DNA from: Isoetes taiwanensis
Lineage: Eukaryota > Streptophyta > Lycopodiopsida > Isoetales > Isoetaceae
Direction: 5' to 3'
NCBI GenBank assembly: GCA_021234155.1
Contig: JAJEKV010000016.1
Span: forward strand, 18,348,698-18,412,697
Length of the DNA stretch: 64,000 nucleotides
Shown here: piece after piece, positions 22,074 through 56,310 of the stretch
How positions within the stretch are numbered: position 1 is the first letter of the stretch
Layout of the letters: each line of letters starts with the position of its first letter
The notes under the pieces: model-generated
What the model was told of the DNA's origin: nothing
Seen by the model: the letters and a program-made list of their open reading frames with translations, nothing else
Databases searched by the model: none
Program-made: the position numbers and the translations under genes

Positions 22074-22632
22074 AGCAGTTGCAGAAACCCTAGAAATGGT
22101 TCACCTTTTGTTATTTCATGAGAAAAAAAGGGCCCTTGGATTTTTTCAATTAAAAGAGGGCTTTCTTTGTAAGCCCTTTGATCTTAACCATTGCGGAGGA
22201 TGAAACAAAAATTGCACAAATTGCATGCAAAAACTTGGTGCACTCTAGATGTACTGATTAGTATGCCTCGTGCAATACGCCCATGAAATCATATGAAAAC
22301 CATGCCAAAAAGCGTACAAAAACACAAAGAAAACCCCCTGTTATTATGCTACATATTCCATGCAAAAGGCAGGAAGTTTTCCAAGCCTGCAGCTGCTAGA
22401 TGCATCAGCATGTGCACTACAAGGATTGCCAGGGAAGGAATTCGAACTCGAATCAAGAGTACAATATTCACCGGTTTTGGAAAAAGCTTTATGGATGAAT
22501 ACTTAAACTTTAAAGAAGCCTTAAACTTTAATCTAATTCAAAAGCAAGAGTAAGTTTACCTACATGAAGAGCAGAGCAGAGCCGATGTCTCGATGCTTCA
22601 ACGCTTTCGCAGACCGTTTGCTATCCCAAGGC

Positions 22633-22711
22633 CTTTAATACACAATAGTCTGCCTCTTTTACTATAAAGGTGCTTTAATACACAATAGTCTGCCTCTTTT
22701 ACTATAAAGGT
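22633..22711. repeat. 40-bp tandem duplication
   Basis: CTTTAATACACAATAGTCTG plus CCTCTTTTACTATAAAGGT occurs at 22633-22671 and 22673-22711, identical. It lies upstream of the TATA box of the plus-strand OB-fold-like gene copy. Confidence 0.96.
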
Positions 22712-22752
22712 ACCTTTATGTTCCAAAGAGGGAAAAAGACCCTTTTTTGCGA

Positions 22753-22761
22753 TATATAAAA
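22753..22761 (+). promoter_or_regulatory. TATA box of OB-fold-like gene, plus copy
   Basis: TATATAAAA is followed by ATGATGGAGGAGCGAGTCTT. The same block precedes the inverted copy at 25656-25664, where the box is identical and the flank has one change. The promoter was therefore duplicated together with the gene. The first ATG of the gene (22889) is about 130 bases downstream. Confidence 0.55.
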
Positions 22762-22888
22762 ATGATGGAGGAGCGAGTCTTCTAACCATCCACAACTAAC
22801 GCTCTATTGCTCCTCCTTGTTTAACAACTAAAGCTCTATTGCTCTTAATTGTTTCTTTCGGATCTCATTAACTAGTGTGGCAGTGCAC

Positions 22889-23660
22889 ATGGCATCATCC
22901 AGTGCCATCAAATGCGTGGCAGGCGGGGATTCTATTGACATGCCCAATTCGAAGTCAATAAAAGCAATTCAGAAATCGGCGTGTTTGTTTACTGCTCTTG
23001 GAAATGAGATACATGTGCTCGTTCTAATCTAATATGGCAACTTGCTACGGGCAACATCTAATAGTTAAAAGGGCATGGAATATGGACGTCGTAGACGAGC
23101 ATGCGATCCACACAATCACAATAACTACAAACGAGGAACGGGGCGTGGAATTGCAAACCGTATTGAGACCATGGTTTTGGGTCTCCATACGTAATTTCAG
23201 TGTAAAGAAGAGAAATTCGTCGTATGAGTTCGGAGATTGTGTGAACACCATAAAGATTCTAAGGACCACCGAGGTGGCATCCATTGAAGGGCCTGGAATT
23301 TTGCTTTTCTTATTGCCCACAGATGGCGCAAACATTCGGTCACTGTTAGGCACGATCCATGACCAACCTATACACGTCAACCTACTAGTTGTTATTGTCG
23401 AGGTCAAAGAACATGGGATGTTCCTTTGTTTGCTAGTCGCAGATGGGTGTCACAAAAAGGATGTTGCAGAATTGAAGTTTTGGCCTGAACAGGCACATGT
23501 TTTTGAGAAGTTCAAATGCTCGTTTGTTTTATGGCATAAACCTATTGTCTTATTCAAGACCTTAAAGGACAGTATGTTCCGTGGCCAAACTAGTTTAACA
23601 TCTGCGGAGGCTACAATGGCATACAAGATTGTAGAGGACGAAGTGTCAAGTTGGTTTTCG
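22889..23660 (+). pseudogene. OB-fold (RPA1-like) protein, plus-strand copy
   Basis: Its closest relative is the inverted copy at 23700-25570. From ATG 22889 the frame reads IDMPNSKSIKAIQKSACLF and GNEIHVLVLI. It then meets TAA at 23030 (CAA in the other copy), another TAA, and a frame change near 23080. After that it is open: HAIHTITITTNEERGVELQT, DGANIRSLLGT, IHVNLLVVIVEVKE, VFEKFKCSFVLWHKPIVLFK, then FRGQTSL. The pattern of a beta-rich domain with a basic, VRVRI-like start, followed by a second domain ending in P-I-V-L-F-K and S-x-F-x-G, resembles the tandem ssDNA-binding OB folds of plant RPA1. This assignment is inferred from pattern only. Homology to the other copy ends near 23655 at GGTTTCC. 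Confidence 0.5.
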
Positions 23661-23704
23661 GATGAATTATGGTTTCCAGATGGTGTTTGTTCAGTAAATT
23701 TAGG

Positions 23705-25567
23705 TTATATGTTTTCTGAGTACGCGATGAATGAGCTTAGGTCCTGTCGAAGGCAATTCACTGAACCCAATGCTCCTCCTAATAGATAAGCAAGGAATTT
23801 GTCAAGCAATGCTCCCACCATTGTCACATTTAGCATCTCGCATCCAGTGTCAATATCATCGAACATTGTTAACTCTTCCGTCAGGTCGTCCTTCCTGCAC
23901 TTCTCGCAGATACTGTCCTGCACAACCTTCTTGCAAACATTGCACCTCTTTACGCCTTATTGTCGCCAGTTATATTCAATCTCAATGTGCCTAAGTCCTT
24001 TCACATCCAAAAATATTTGATTAGTAGGAAACTGTATCAAAGTAGGTGACAAGCAAGGAAATTTTTGCCTTAGGTTTAACAGCAAACGATATGCCTTGGT
24101 ATTGTCTAAAACGTGTGCTGCGAAGAGCAGGGATAGGTTCTATACGTACAAAATTAAAATTTCTGACGTATAAAGTTAAAAAAATAATTCATTTTTAATA
24201 AAATACGTGTTTAACGTATAAATACCTCGCCCGGTAGGAAAAAAATCTTCGCAGCGTCGCGAAACCTTCGTGATAAGCGTCGCTAAAATTTTTCGCGGAC
24301 GCGAAATAGAAAGAATCAAGGTCTTGAAGACAATAGGTTTATGACGCTAAAATAAACATAGCGTTTGAAAATTTTTCACACATGTCCTTATCCAGTTCAT
24401 TTCAGCGTCTGCCAACATCCTTTTGCCAAAAAAAATCTACGCAAAAAATAACAAGGGAAAACAATTCATGTTCTTCGGAAGATTTTCGACGCTGGAAACA
24501 ACAAATCGTCTGACGCCAAAAGTCCGCGACGCCAGGAGGCGTTGGTTTCATGGGTCGCCTTTGGTTTCACAGACGGACTCGAAGGTTTCACCATCTGCGA
24601 AAAATTTTTCAGACGCTGATATAGTTGTTTTCGCGTGCCCTTCAATCTTCCCACCTTGGTGTTTTTTTTTTTTTATGCTTTATACGGCAAAATTTGTGTT
24701 CATACAATTCATACGTATTCATATAAAACGCGTTCTCTTCCTTATACCGATTGAACCTATCCCTGGCGAAGAGGAAACCATAATTCATCCGGAAACTAGC
24801 TTGACATTGCGTCCTCTACAATCTTGAATGCCATTGTAGCCTCCGCATATGTTAAACTAGTTTGGCCACGGAACGTACTTACCTTCAAGGTCTTGAATAA
24901 GACAATAGGTTTATGCCCTAGAACAAACAAGCGTTTGAACTTCTCAAACACATGTCCTTGTTCAATCCAGAACTTCAATTCTGCAACATCCTTTTTGCCA
25001 CACCCATTTACGACTAGTAAACAAGGGAACATCTCATGTTCTTTGACCTCGACAATAACAACGAGCAGGTTGACGTGTATAGGTTGGTCATGGGTCGTTC
25101 CTAACAGTGACCGAATATTTGCACCATCTGTGGGCAATAAAGAAAGCAGAACTCCAGGCCCTTCAATGTATGCCACCTTGGTGTTCTTTAGAATCCGTAT
25201 GGTGTTCACACAATCTCCGAACTCATATAACGGATTTCTCTTCCTTATACCGAAAATTATTTATGGAGACCCAAGAGCGTGGTCTCAACACAGTCTGCAA
25301 TTCCACACCCCGTTCCTCCTCAGCAGTTACTGTGATTGTGTGCATTGCATGCTCGTCTAAGACGACGACATTCAACGCCCTATAAGTGTTAGATGTTTCT
25401 CGTAATAAATTCCCATATTGGATTCGAACGCGCACATGTATCTCGTTTCCAGGAGCAACGAACAAACAAGCTGATTTCTGGATCGCTTTTGTTGACTTCA
25501 GATTGGGCATGTCAACGGAATCCCTGCTTGTCTCGCATTTGGTGCTTCTAAATGATGCCTTCTGCAT
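23705..25567 (-). pseudogene. OB-fold (RPA1-like) protein, minus-strand copy with zinc-ribbon-like C-terminal exon
   Basis: From ATG 25567 it reads RNA/DNA-binding-like blocks EIHVRVRIQYGNLLRETSN, HAMHTITVTAEEERGVELQT, a frame change near 25215, then GPGVLLSLLPTDGANIRSLL, IHVNLLVVIVEVKEHEMFP and KPIVLFKTLKVSTFRGQTSL. It meets TAG near 24793, where the plus copy has TGG. Much further downstream, at 24110-23705, the frame KAYRLLLNLRQKFPCLSPT, IEYNWRQ, a TAA, then KRCNVCKKVVQDSICEKCRK carries CxxC...CxxC. That is the arrangement of the RPA1 C-terminal zinc ribbon. Between them lies a third, altered copy of the gene middle (24240-24780). RPA1-like is my best reading, with moderate confidence. Telomere or transposon-borne OB-fold proteins are alternatives. 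Confidence 0.45.
24240..24780 (-). repeat. Third, heavily altered copy of the OB-fold gene middle, studded with GACGC/GCGTC
   Basis: This aligns base for base with 24830-25250. Shared runs include TCAAGGTCTTGAA, GACAATAGGTTTATG, ACACATGTCCTT, AACATCCTTTTTGCCA, CCCTTCAATC and TCTCTTCCTTATACCGA, in the same order and spacing. In place of the intervening bases it carries nine GACGC or GCGTC pentamers between about 24255 and 24617, plus GCGAAAATT-type runs. No coding frame survives. The motif recalls subterminal repeats of plant CACTA elements, but I see no CACTA terminus. Confidence 0.7.
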
Positions 25568-25655
25568 TATCGCACTAGTTAATGGGATCCAAAAGGAACG
25601 AGAGAAGCAATAGAGCTTTACTTGACGATGGTTGTAAGACTCGCTCCTCCACCAT

Positions 25656-25664
25656 TTTTATATA
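25656..25664 (-). promoter_or_regulatory. TATA box of OB-fold-like gene, minus copy
   Basis: On the minus strand TATATAAAA is followed by ATGGTGGAGGAGCGAGTCTT, the same promoter block as at 22753 on the plus strand. Confidence 0.55.
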
Positions 25665-25699
25665 TGGCAAAAAAAAGAGTTTTTTGCCTTTTTCGAACA

Positions 25700-27725
25700 T
25701 AAAGGCATTTTTCTGTGAAAATGCAAAGTGTTGCCTATTTAAAGAATAGGAATAGCGAAGTATTCATTTCAAGGGTCTGTGAAAGCGTTTGTGCATCTAG
25801 AGATCGACGACTGTGTTGTGCTCTGCAGTGTAGGTAAAGTTATTCTTCATTCCTCTTGTATACATTTGTAATCTAGCAATTTTAAAGTAGGATGAAGTGC
25901 AAGTGAGTTCTGTCATAGGTAAAGATGGCTGGTTCTACTGATGGTCGTTTCTAGTTCCAAGATTTGGAAACAAGGTTCACCCTTGTCGTCCTGCTTGTAT
26001 GAGGCTTTGATTCACCACTAGCATGTTTCCTCCACCATTTCCTTCCTTTTCAAATCTTCAAGTCTTTTTCAAAGAGGGCTTGATGGTTGCAGTGATGGAG
26101 TTTGGAGCATTTTGGCCGTAACCTTCATAGCCAGTCCAAGTTGTAGGCCTTCACATCATGCATTATATTGATTAAAAATTCTTCATGCTGCTTGTGAGTG
26201 CATTGTATGGGAATTCTCTGATAGCCAAGATGGTGACAGAACATACTTTGGTACTCTGTTATGTTCGTCTGTGATCTTCAATCCTTAGTTTTATGCAATT
26301 CCAAAATTTGCATTCAATAACATTCCAGTATTTTCTTGCTAAAAAGTAGATGCTAGAAACTGAATCAACAAAGTTTATACTCTACACTAATCCATGTTCA
26401 GGGCGACAGAAGGCTAGGTATGAACCTATGAAATCCAAGATCATGCTACTAAATCATAAGCAAGGAAAAACTTATCAGAGTCGGATTTAAATATAATAGT
26501 TTGATCTTCATCGTTATTTGTAGCTGTCATTTGACAAAATGAACCAGAAATTCCATGACTATCCAATAGACCAACCAGTAACTTCCATGAAAATTCAGCA
26601 ACTAATGTCCATTCTAGTTTATCATCAAAGGCATAACCCTGCCATAGTGCAAGATGATGCACATTATCACCTGCTATATTTAATTCACTCCAGTCTTGCG
26701 CAGAAAAAAATGTGCTCTATGGCTTAAAAAATGCGTAAATGTGTTATATTTCAATAAGCTTCAACAGTCAAGATCAAAAGCATGAGCTACCAGTTTTAAT
26801 TCTCTCCAGTTGTGGACTAACAATGAACCAACTAGTCGGCTATTTATACATCCATCCCACTATAATGTTGCTCCTTTAATCCATAATTCTGTAATGTTGC
26901 CCCAAACAAGTAGTCACGGATCAACGGTTGACATTGCCAACTGATTCTTTCCATAATTATCTTCCTAGAGTTGTGCAGCCTTATGTGATAGGTTGTTGCT
27001 CCAAATGTTTGCAGCATAACCCTTGATTGAAGGCAGTGGTGAAGAAAAATGAGCCATGTGGTTCTGCCATAGGAGGAGTAGAAGTCAATTATTATTAGAT
27101 GACCTCTCAAACGGGACTACAATACCAGAACCAAGTGTTTTGGACCTAAAGATAAACTATAAATCTTCCCCTACACTCAATTTCTCTTAAATAGCTAGGT
27201 AAAGATATGAATGGAAATAACATTGACATATCCTATACCACTAGACTAGTTGCGATGCAGTTCAATTCAGCCAGCAACCTAGTTCTATTATCCCAGCTAA
27301 AATGTTGCCATTACTTTGAGTTGCTTATCATTGTGAAGTGCACTGCTTTATAAATGGGCTAGGGATAGATCTTACCTAATATATCAGACGTTACCAGAAT
27401 TTCCTCGTACCAATTAGTTAGCCAATTATCAGAGCGGCATAACCACACCACTTGTAAACTCCTAGATTCTCAATCCAACAGTTCATCTTAGCAAGCAGGA
27501 GCATTTAGAAAAGAATGGCAAGGATTCAAATACCATAGCTGCGAGCTAATTATTTCTAAACTGTAATATCTTGACAGGCACCGAGCAAAGTGAGCCATAT
27601 TATGGTGGCTGGCTGCATAGAGAGATTATTGATAAATTCCCGTGCTTCATCCAAACACCTTGCCCATACAGAAGGTTGATTAGACAGTTACAGTGCTCCT
27701 CCTTAAGCAAAATGTTATGGATTCT
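25700..27725. other. No gene seen
   Basis: This is AT-rich DNA with only short open frames that show no family signature. Nothing recognisable on either strand. Confidence 0.55.
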
Positions 27726-27727
27726 AA

Positions 27728-28650
27728 TCATACGAAGGAAAAAAAACAACCGCGTGTGATCAAACTTGCATGGCTATATGCAGAAATGATAACCATGTAA
27801 GTAACATCATTTGGCATGTGGCCCCTAAGCTGCAGTACTCCAAAAAGATGGAGCACCTCCTCACCACACCCTTGATAAGCATAAGCTGCAAGCATGAAGA
27901 TCCATGTAACAACATCCTGCTTCTTCGTTGTCTGAAATTTATCCAATGCATCCAAACTACCGCATTTTCCATACGTGTCCACTAGAGCATTTCCTACTGC
28001 AATGTCTAACTCTGATTGACTTGCGACAATATAAGCATGTATATGTTTACCAGGTAGATCAGCTTCAGCAGCACATGCATCAAGAATGCAGGCAACCATA
28101 ATATTGTCTGGAGCCAATGCGTGTACCTTACTCTGCTGAAAAAGTTTTATAGCTTCTGCGCTGTTTCCACAAGCTAAATAACCCACAGTCAATGTGGAGA
28201 AGCCCACAACATCTAAATTTCGCATGTTATCAAATACTGACCGCGCCTCCTCTATGTTGTGGCATTTGGTATACATGTGAACAATGGCATTTCCAACAAC
28301 ATTTGATTCTACTCCACCAACCAGAACAAAAGAGCGTATTAACTTGCCTTTTGCGAGGACGTGTAAATGAGAAAATGCATTTAAGATGGAAATGTATGTG
28401 ACCCTATTAGGTTTAGCATCCTGGTTCAACATAGTTTTAAACAAACTTAGGATCTCGTCGATCTGTCCAAGTTTAGCATATGTTGCAATCATAGCATTCC
28501 AAGAGACCACATCTCACAAAACCATCCTATCAAAAATATTCTGTGCATCAGCCACTTTGCCACATTGGAGATATATATCAACTATCATATTAGTGTTCAT
28601 AAATGTAGTTAGTTCAGTACCGGCCCTATTATTTACAACAGACATTTGAT
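27728..28650 (-). pseudogene. PPR protein (PLS-class) fragment
   Basis: Pentatricopeptide repeats bind organellar RNA. On the minus strand the frame holds about seven repeats: IYLQCGKVADAQNIFDRM, DVVSWNAMIATYAKLGQIDE, KPNRVTYISILNAFSHL, VGNAIVHMYTKCHNIEEARS, CILDACAAEADLPGKHIHAY, VGNALVDTYGKCGSLDALDK, and PNDVTYMVIISAYSHASL. A TGA near 28514 stands where PPR proteins have Arg in the block RDVVSWNAM, a CGA to TGA change. The frame ends at 27728 without E or DYW domains, and no N-terminal targeting exon is seen. It is a relic or an internal fragment. Confidence 0.88.
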
Positions 28651-49699: not shown

Positions 49700-51000
49700 C
49701 TATAACATGCCGAGACAAAATGGCCTACTAAAGACCCTGTGTGTCACCATAAAACTACCAACCATCAGCTTTGCATACAACAGAATGTATGCAACCACCA
49801 ATTTCCAAACCATTTTCTCCTGTTGACAAAGACCAAAATTCTTTTGGAATTCCTCCCAAAATAGCAGAAGCCTTTGAGAGTACCAATCTCCTATAGAATT
49901 CACACTTAACAATATCCTTGGATCCTTAAATCCACTTGCAAAAATGGAGGCTTTGGATCATCATTAATTGTTACTACTAACCATCAGATTGGCGTTACAA
50001 TAGAATAACAATTTCCTACACTCAGTTGCCACAAACTCTTAATGTACTCCCATGATTTCAGTAAGCCTTTAAGAAAAGAGGATGCCCCCTTTGTATGACC
50101 GCAAGCCATAAAACAAACCCATGGGAATTATACTCGCTTAGAAGCCTTACCACAAGGGATGCAATGAATCCATGGCTGATATGCCAACTGAAGATCAAGA
50201 GAGTTCATTTCCACACAACAATTGCCACGTGAACTTACACACCAAGACCTTGCTATGAAGAGAAAAATCCAATACTCCCAGTTCACCATGAAACTTCGGG
50301 ATAGTATTTATTCCAGACAATCTTGCAATCTGCTTCTTCCTTATTTCCCCTTATATCAAGTTACGAATCGTCTGTGTTAATCTGTGAACAATGTATTTAG
50401 AGGCTAAGTGAAGCCACATGAATGTGTGTGCTACCTAACACTGGATTAGTCACTGTGATTCTGCCTGCAGTCGACAACTTATAAGCCTTTCACCAATTTA
50501 AGTGCTTATCAAGGCCCGGAAGAATCTCATTCTAAGATTTTACAATTGACCTGTCAATGACGAGTGGGTACCTAAGAGCTCGGATGGGGCACCATGTGGG
50601 ACAAACTTTGAAGGAAAATTTTGCTCGATAACTGACAAAGGATGTTCGAGAAGCCACAATGCTGCACGTTTCTCCCAATTTAAGGAACATCCTGCTATCA
50701 AAGAAAAAGAGTCTAACAACTCTCTTGCATTCGATACATTTTCTTTTGACGCCTCAAGAAGTAGAAATGTGTTGTCTGTATGCCAGTTGAAAACTTGTTG
50801 AGTACCATCATACATGGTTAGTCCTATGACGACATAATCCTCCACTGCTGAGAGAATCGACTAAAATAATCCTTCGGCCACAAAGTTAAACAAGAAAGGT
50901 GTCAAAGAACAACATTGTCTGATACCCCTTCCTATTGAAACAAGGTGCTGCGCACAAGGGGTTGCCCTCCGGAAGGCCCTAAAGTGTGTCTTCGTGTTGG
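49700..51000 (-). mobile_element. L1-type LINE relic (RT and C-terminal part)
   Basis: Read downward from 50940: RGIRQCCSLTPFLFNFVAEG, then NWHTDNTFLLLEASKENVSN (YADD box changed to HTDN), LDSFSLIAGCSLNWEKRAAL, KLVKGL-type remnant of the HLNWW.A.KLS.AGRI block near 50490, TNPVLGSTHIHVASLSL (about 50430) and SKVLVCKFTWQLL (50260). The order matches the LINE at 15.4-17.9 kb. Many stops and frame changes are present. A further open frame at 49912-49700 probably belongs to it. Confidence 0.85.
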
Positions 51001-56055: not shown

Positions 56056-56310
56056 TCTGAGCTACGTTTCTTGACTCACGAGTCGAGAAAGGCCCTTAGA
56101 CCTACATTTTTCAATCTGAGCTGCTTTTCTCGACTCCCGAGTGGAGAAAAGCCCTCAGATCTGCCTTTTTTATTCTGAACTGCCTTTCTCGCCTCGCGAG
56201 TCGAGAAAGGCCCTCAAACTTGCGTTTTTCACTCTAAGCTGCCTTTCTCGACTCGCGAGTCGAGAAAGACCCTCAAACTTGTGTTTTTCACTCTAAGCTT
56301 TTTCAAAAAA
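56056..56310. repeat. 59-bp minisatellite, each unit holding a 24-bp palindrome
   Basis: Units start at 56056, 56115, 56174 and 56233, with a partial unit at 56292. The period is exactly 59 bp throughout. Each centre is TTTCTCGACTCG followed by its complement CGAGTCGAGAAA. Unit 4 (56244-56267) is a perfect 24-bp palindrome, unit 3 has one mismatched pair, and units 1-2 have a few. The rest of the unit is T-rich (TTTTTCA.TCT). Confidence 0.97.

Follow-up and report, generated by a model that had tools for sequence, protein, structure and literature searches.

Plant Helitron transposons are known to carry genes related to the large subunit of replication protein A (RPA), the plant Helitron RPA genes (PHRPAs), and rice has an RPA-only mother element, Mothra (PMC4683698). 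In a 2015 survey PHRPAs were confined to monocots and dicots, and paralogues from moss and alga stood outside them at the same level (PMC4683698). In the FoHeli elements of Fusarium, insertion sites are T-rich, and a reversed orientation of open reading frames (ORFs) has been explained by self-insertion in the opposite orientation (PMC5148889). Here we describe a locus in a stretch of 64,000 nucleotides from the lycophyte Isoetes taiwanensis (assembly GCA_021234155.1, contig JAJEKV010000016.1, positions 18,348,698 to 18,412,697, forward strand; hereafter the window). The locus contains two broken copies of a probably RPA-like gene, inverted and tail to tail, and the pair probably represents decayed Helitron gene copies. 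In itself the locus is common transposon debris; what is unusual is the RPA-bearing Helitron lineage from which it comes. The Helitron-borne nature of the gene is the point that a first-pass annotation of this DNA had missed.

The two arms, 22713-23677 on the plus strand (arm 1) and 25705-24773 on the minus strand (arm 2), are 82.5% identical over 968 alignment columns (blastn, E 0.0). A second matching piece (22546-22618 against 25847-25771) extends the homology upstream of the promoter block, to about 22546. The first-pass annotation had described two facing gene copies that share a promoter block and are both broken, and all of this was borne out. TATATAAAA was found in both arms with nearly identical adjoining bases, and the TATATAAAAA block is located at 22753..22762 (plus) and 25655..25664 (minus). 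The plus copy (22713..23686), consisting of the promoter block and two modules resembling the oligonucleotide/oligosaccharide-binding (OB) fold, has a frame break at about 23028-23032 and ends, at about 23686, before any zinc-ribbon module. The corresponding part of the minus copy (24774..25705) has a frameshift at about 25223-25260 and a stop codon at about 24796. Protein identity between the arms is 81-84% across the second module and 63% for the more N-terminal piece of arm 2, where the frame of arm 1 is shifted.

That annotation had also proposed that the two copies converge on one zinc-ribbon-like end. There is indeed a single such end, but it belongs to the minus copy alone: a third module (23759..24127, minus) with a CNVC...CEKC motif at about 23897-23944 and a stop codon inside. 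Because this end is part of the minus copy only, and because the minus copy is split by a miniature inverted-repeat transposable element (MITE), the center of the locus consists of the MITE and about 450 bp from the minus copy. The flanks also belong to the family. The plus-copy upstream region (22546..22712), which contains a 40-bp direct duplication at 22633-22711, is partly homologous to upstream DNA in the minus copy and elsewhere in the family; the minus-copy upstream region (25706..25911) is matched by other copies out to 25911 and is 85% identical to copy L028 over 25729-25911. The 20-base promoter block (up to 4 mismatches) was present in 22 of 27 family copies outside the window (all except L025, L027, L028, L029 and L031) and is therefore a trait of the family, not something special to this locus.

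We searched the genome (1,658,258,908 bases, 1,110 contigs) with the DNA of arm 1 and with the 350-amino-acid frame of copy L018, and obtained at least 43 matches (249 candidates, 40 scored) and at least 124 matches (697 candidates, 116 scored), respectively. When merged, these searches gave at least about 104 gene loci, including the two in the window and three distant relatives. The copies found by DNA are spread over many contigs, and most have 78-88% identity with arm 1 across the matched parts. More intact paralogues, which the first-pass annotation had proposed to look for, do exist: there are open frames of 350 (L018) and 347 (L017) amino acids and, in a distant relative, one of 440 amino acids without a stop. 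The median ratio of nonsynonymous to synonymous substitution rates (dN/dS) was 0.39 over 590 pairs that are not independent of one another, 0.65 for the 43 close pairs and 0.34 for the 273 distant pairs; between the arms, dN was 0.110 and dS 0.198 (ratio 0.55). This trend is as might be expected of a transposon gene that is selected only along active lineages. A short dispersed repeat at 22236-22358 of the window also occurs near family copies in L015, L021 and L029 (78-85% identity).

Several relatives are linked to the Rep/helicase (RepHel) gene of Helitrons. A RepHel reading lies head to head with the RPA-like gene in 5 of the 27 copies outside the window (L017, L019, L022, L023 and L030) and in the distant relative L045. 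At C974:10.621-10.627 Mb, a multi-frame RepHel reading (L059, L062) is divergent from the gene of L017, and L059 matched the Pfam families DUF6570 (E 2.3e-8) and PIF1 (E 1.9e-7). The reading beside L023 (L057) matched Helitron_like_N (E 1.9e-18), the match next to L019 is to the helicase part, and those at L022 (with L058) and at the right arm of L030 are to the N-terminal part of the L059 reading only. In this survey most copies were covered for about 1.1-1.5 kb upstream. The truncated family copy L031 has RepHel matches in its flanks, to a different Helitron, L060. In a separate comparison, in which 150 of 1,813 RepHel candidates were scored for Helitron_like_N, four of seven loci with strong RPA1-type Pfam genes (L037, L038, L039 and L043 among L037-L043) had a Helitron_like_N match on the same strand within 13 kb.

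The relatives also share a terminus. Of 15 copies that were compared, ten have at their end a hairpin and then CACCTTG, with unrelated flanking DNA beyond it; of the other five, L027 ends in CACATTG, two loci stop short of the end, and L021 and L025 have no such terminus. The 30-base terminus GGAGGGCAACCCTCCGTGCGCAGCACCTTG had 4,907 matches in the genome with up to 2 mismatches and the reversed control had none. The two bases just after it were TT in 99 of 100 listed exact sites, counted by eye (there are 1,845 such sites in all). A short interspersed nuclear element was considered as the source of the shared 3' end and dropped, as only the last part is shared and the bodies differ. The dispersed family, the RepHel linkage and the terminus shared by relatives together indicate that the arms are probably decayed Helitron genes.

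Several observations weigh against this assignment. No RepHel match was detected in the window (tblastn, E ≤ 1e-3), and neither arm has a hairpin terminus, so the Helitron origin of both arms rests on their relatives. In seven copies for which 3.3 to about 9 kb of DNA upstream was covered (L002/L009, L006/L010, L007/L034, L008/L032, L011, L012/L035 and L021/L033), no RepHel match was seen at E ≤ 1e-5. The terminus ends in CTTG rather than CTRR and is located on the 5' side of RepHel, and a common 5' terminus, which would bear on the 5' TC end and on A|T insertion, was sought among the elements and not found. The canonical Helitron1 3' end, a hairpin 10-12 nt before CTRR, is thus represented by its hairpin but not by its last bases; the predicted DNA hairpin was modestly better than shuffled sequences (z -1.57). 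CTAG ends with a different hairpin occur in two stretches (L060, L061) that follow other Helitron genes. Because of the RepHel linkage, the Helitron-like hairpin and its position, the CTTG end and parallels to Helitron2-type elements, we would class the family with the RepHel Helitrons, as one whose termini are non-canonical. The one match to the terminus in the window is at 50941-50970 (minus; CTTG class, 3 mismatches), and a second element may end there.

The first-pass annotation had suggested that the product is an RPA1-type single-stranded DNA-binding protein. In part this stands. RPA1 has three OB modules, the third with a zinc ribbon. For the first module, DUF223, which we take to be linked to plant RPA1, was matched by 6 of 17 related fragments (best E 0.0019), and for the second, REPA_OB_2 by 8 of 17 (best E 0.0057), in all cases under the Pfam cut-off. 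Arm 2 matched REPA_OB_2 at E 0.013, and arm 1 alone matched neither family. Among distant relatives, DUF223 was matched, again under the cut-off, by L045 (E 0.0008), L046 (0.016) and L047 (0.013), the last two being 98% identical. Reversed sequences gave no match at E ≤ 1 in any of six controls. The DUF223, REPA_OB_2 and zinc-ribbon signals stand in the order of RPA1, and the minus copy has a CxxC..CxxC motif in its third module, as do, counted by eye, 7 of 10 third-module fragments. Rep_fac-A_C (PF08646) was absent from the families matched by the fragments.

Direct comparison with RPA1 did not carry the claim further, and several results count against it. The profile comparison that the first-pass annotation had proposed was in register with RPA1 but not significant (hhalign, E 0.17; 0.096 in a second run), and the proposed Foldseek search with AlphaFold models of the window arms gave no match at E ≤ 0.001. 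The confidence of these models is too low for them to be of use (predicted local distance difference test scores of 32 and 42). No hmmsearch comparison, in either direction, with the RPA1-type proteins of the genome rose above reversed decoys, and the family profiles found no RPA among PDB sequences (0 and 4 weak, unrelated matches). The second AlphaFold model, also of low confidence, has the OB-like strand order b-b-b-a-b-b-b; in structure comparison it matched RPA70, SSB and Teb1 at weak Z scores (2.4-3.0), with unrelated folds equal or higher. VIA-align of an AlphaFold model gave only Z scores below 5, the highest (4.2) for 5ly5, Arcadin-1. Mostly from the module order, the Helitron context and the known plant Helitron RPAs, we nevertheless consider kinship of the family protein with RPA to be quite probable.

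How the two copies came to face each other can be approached from the arms and from the junction between them. The DNA tree, built from 35 rows, places arm 1 with L006, L020 and L029 (support 86/85) and arm 2 elsewhere within the same larger clade (100/99); forcing the arms together cost 13.6 log-likelihood units and was rejected by the approximately unbiased (AU) test (p 0.018). A rival origin is a simple local inverted duplication of one copy, followed by divergence. The tail-to-tail geometry and the sharp junction would suit such an event, and in a protein tree of 15 rows the arms are nearest rows on an open fork. This protein result speaks against separate origins and makes the separation of the arms moderate. 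Still, with the arms separated in the DNA tree and their 82.5% identity no higher than what the arms show with other copies, which reaches 88% over shorter spans, we regard a local duplication as very unlikely. At the junction (23677..23690), which we compared with L005, L006, L014, L020 and L028, the plus copy abuts the 3' flank of the minus copy, and the two share a 3-bp microhomology. That flank (23680..23757, minus) is 87% identical to L006 and 84% identical to L014 and is about 80-90 bp shorter than theirs. We think it reasonably probable that the pair is a composite of two separately diverged copies.

The composite could have arisen in a few steps. In the better preserved elements the RPA-like gene stands head to head with RepHel, and its protein, to judge from known plant Helitrons, would coat the displaced strand during rolling-circle transposition. 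Two diverged copies would have come to face each other, most likely when one element inserted beside or within another. A microhomology-mediated deletion would have removed the inner ends, so that the plus copy lost its third module and the two hairpin termini disappeared. Presumably last, a hAT-type MITE split the minus copy.

The MITE is 638 bp long (24128..24765), with CAGGG...CCCTG ends and flanked by 8-bp target-site duplications of GCGAAGAG at 24120..24127 and 24766..24773. A genome search gave at least 49 matches (1,462 candidates, 40 scored), and all six copies examined, the window copy and five others, had the terminal inverted repeats and an 8-bp target duplication. The ends and duplications are like those of hAT-type MITEs, but the interior of the window copy is mixed with arm-2 sequence. 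Between 24316 and 24750 it is a colinear mosaic of MITE and arm 2, containing 25 11-mers of arm 2 in colinear order and 10 of arm 1. Gene capture by the MITE was considered and dropped: none of the five other MITE copies contained an arm-2 11-mer, and sequence that alternates every 10 bp or so is better explained by a mixed consensus. The mosaic is probably a consensus artifact of a heterozygous insertion, produced for example by racon polishing.

The mosaic also bears on whether the whole inverted pair could be an assembly artifact, from a fold-back read or from collapsed alleles. It is the kind of sequence that a consensus of two sequences would give, and the published assembly was made with miniasm, racon and pilon (PMC8566536). 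A fold-back read, however, would give near-identical arms rather than arms of 82.5% identity, and there are four more inverted loci of the family on three other contigs. An artifact of this type is extremely improbable.

These four loci are at C1027:15.456, C1070:7.885, C1070:8.054 and C927:2.417 Mb. Two of them, C1070:8.054 and C927:2.417 (L048/L050), are one inverted-repeat unit: their flanks are 93-97% identical and the center is flipped between them, as recombination between inverted arms would produce, and they may be alleles or a duplication. A sister relationship of the arms was not rejected at C1070:7.885 (AU p 0.49) or C927 (p 0.085) and was rejected at C1070:8.054 (p 0.025). The center of L030 contains a 41-bp loop between palindrome arms with, by eye, two copies resembling the inverse of the gene's 5' leader.

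Taking neighboring genes less than 6 kb apart in two lineages, we counted 10 convergent, 0 divergent and 4 same-strand pairs. This census added 57 of the 100 matches of a further search, the rest being the query or loci already known from the protein search, and the same-strand pairs may in part be one gene split by an insert. The second lineage, that of L045, is related to the window family and has a convergent pair of RPA-like genes, strongly diverged from each other and separated by 1-3.5 kb, at five loci (L064, L065, C907:47.23, C1030:0.937 and C1035:4.73 Mb). Both L064 genes and the outer gene of L065 are far from L045 in the protein tree, and the pairs of this lineage are old paralogues. 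Given these paralogues and the unit shared between C1070:8.054 and C927, the ten pairs correspond to fewer independent events, and the convergent bias is suggestive only.

The L045 lineage raises the question of whether the window pair could be what remains of a Helitron in which two convergent RPA-like genes are the normal complement. The five closely spaced pairs point that way, as does the zinc-ribbon motif that L064 has in its minus gene and L065 in its plus gene. The outer genes of that lineage, though, have 36-39% protein identity to L045, whereas the window arms are about 81% identical and fall inside one family clade (100/100). Moreover, the window-family element with RepHel at C974:10.62 Mb has one RPA-like gene before the hairpin end. 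We find a two-gene origin doubtful and return to the composite of two separately diverged copies.

An inverted pair of this kind could also be a functional hairpin. Convergent or read-through transcription would give double-stranded RNA, and small interfering RNAs (siRNAs) of 21-24 nt made from it would silence the Helitron family, in the way proposed for Mu killer and MuDR of maize. This reading is compatible with a Helitron origin and does not exclude it. The geometry suits it, both promoter blocks are present, inverted pairs recur (10 convergent against 0 divergent), and a 24-nt small-RNA peak has been reported in Isoetes sinensis (PMC5569507). Among the 35 other family rows, 30 have a perfect 21-mer in common with arm 1 and 33 with arm 2, and 19 hold a 21-mer that is perfect in the window hairpin itself. 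The stem in the window is poor, however: 49 of 954 21-mers are perfect between the arms and the longest run is 31 bp, compared to 54-354 perfect 21-mers at the other four inverted loci. The arms do not appear as a fold-back pair in the DNA tree, and the inverted pairs are not independent. We judge a functional hairpin in the window to be distinctly improbable. It is a little less so, yet still unlikely, that convergent pairs form repeatedly and that some of them are sources of hairpin siRNAs restraining the Helitron's single-stranded DNA-binding gene, a self-limitation like that by Mu killer. If so, C1070:7.885, C1070:8.054 and C1027:15.456 Mb (155-354 perfect 21-mers) would be the active palindromes and the window locus a decayed one.

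Two other features of the window were observed. An open frame at 27731-28513 (minus) resembles, by eye, a pentatricopeptide-repeat protein, and a tandem array at 56056-56299 has about four copies of a 59-bp unit containing the palindrome CTCGACTCGCGAGTCGAG.

Our literature search, as far as the sources retrieved in it extend, turned up no lycophyte Helitron described as carrying RPA and no description of hairpins formed by Helitron RPA genes. Mu killer of maize, like the window locus, consists of inverted copies of a transposon gene with the potential to form hairpin RNA (PMC3440606). It differs in that it silences MuDR and that its transcripts have been studied, whereas the arms described here are diverged. 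The recurring tail-to-tail pairs offer a testable set for asking whether self-insertion of Helitrons creates hairpin silencers. The FoHeli elements, which are Helitron2-type, share with the Isoetes family the non-canonical termini and the T-rich 3' flank, and in FoHeli3 an extra ORF lies upstream of the transposase, in the reverse orientation (PMC5148889). FoHelis are without an RPA-like gene, and the second terminus was not found in the elements described here. The likeness to PHRPAs and Mothra consists in a Helitron-borne RPA-like gene and in high-copy derivatives without RepHel, for which a related element has been proposed as the RepHel supplier (PMC4683698). In the Isoetes family the host is a lycophyte, the gene is divergent from RepHel, the terminus is CTTG rather than CTAG, and the RPA1 profile match is not significant. 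Our results put a gene that has diverged strongly and is probably RPA-like into the RepHel-bearing Helitrons of a lycophyte, compared to flowering plants only in the 2015 survey (PMC4683698), and so bear on the age of the partnership between these transposons and single-stranded DNA-binding proteins.

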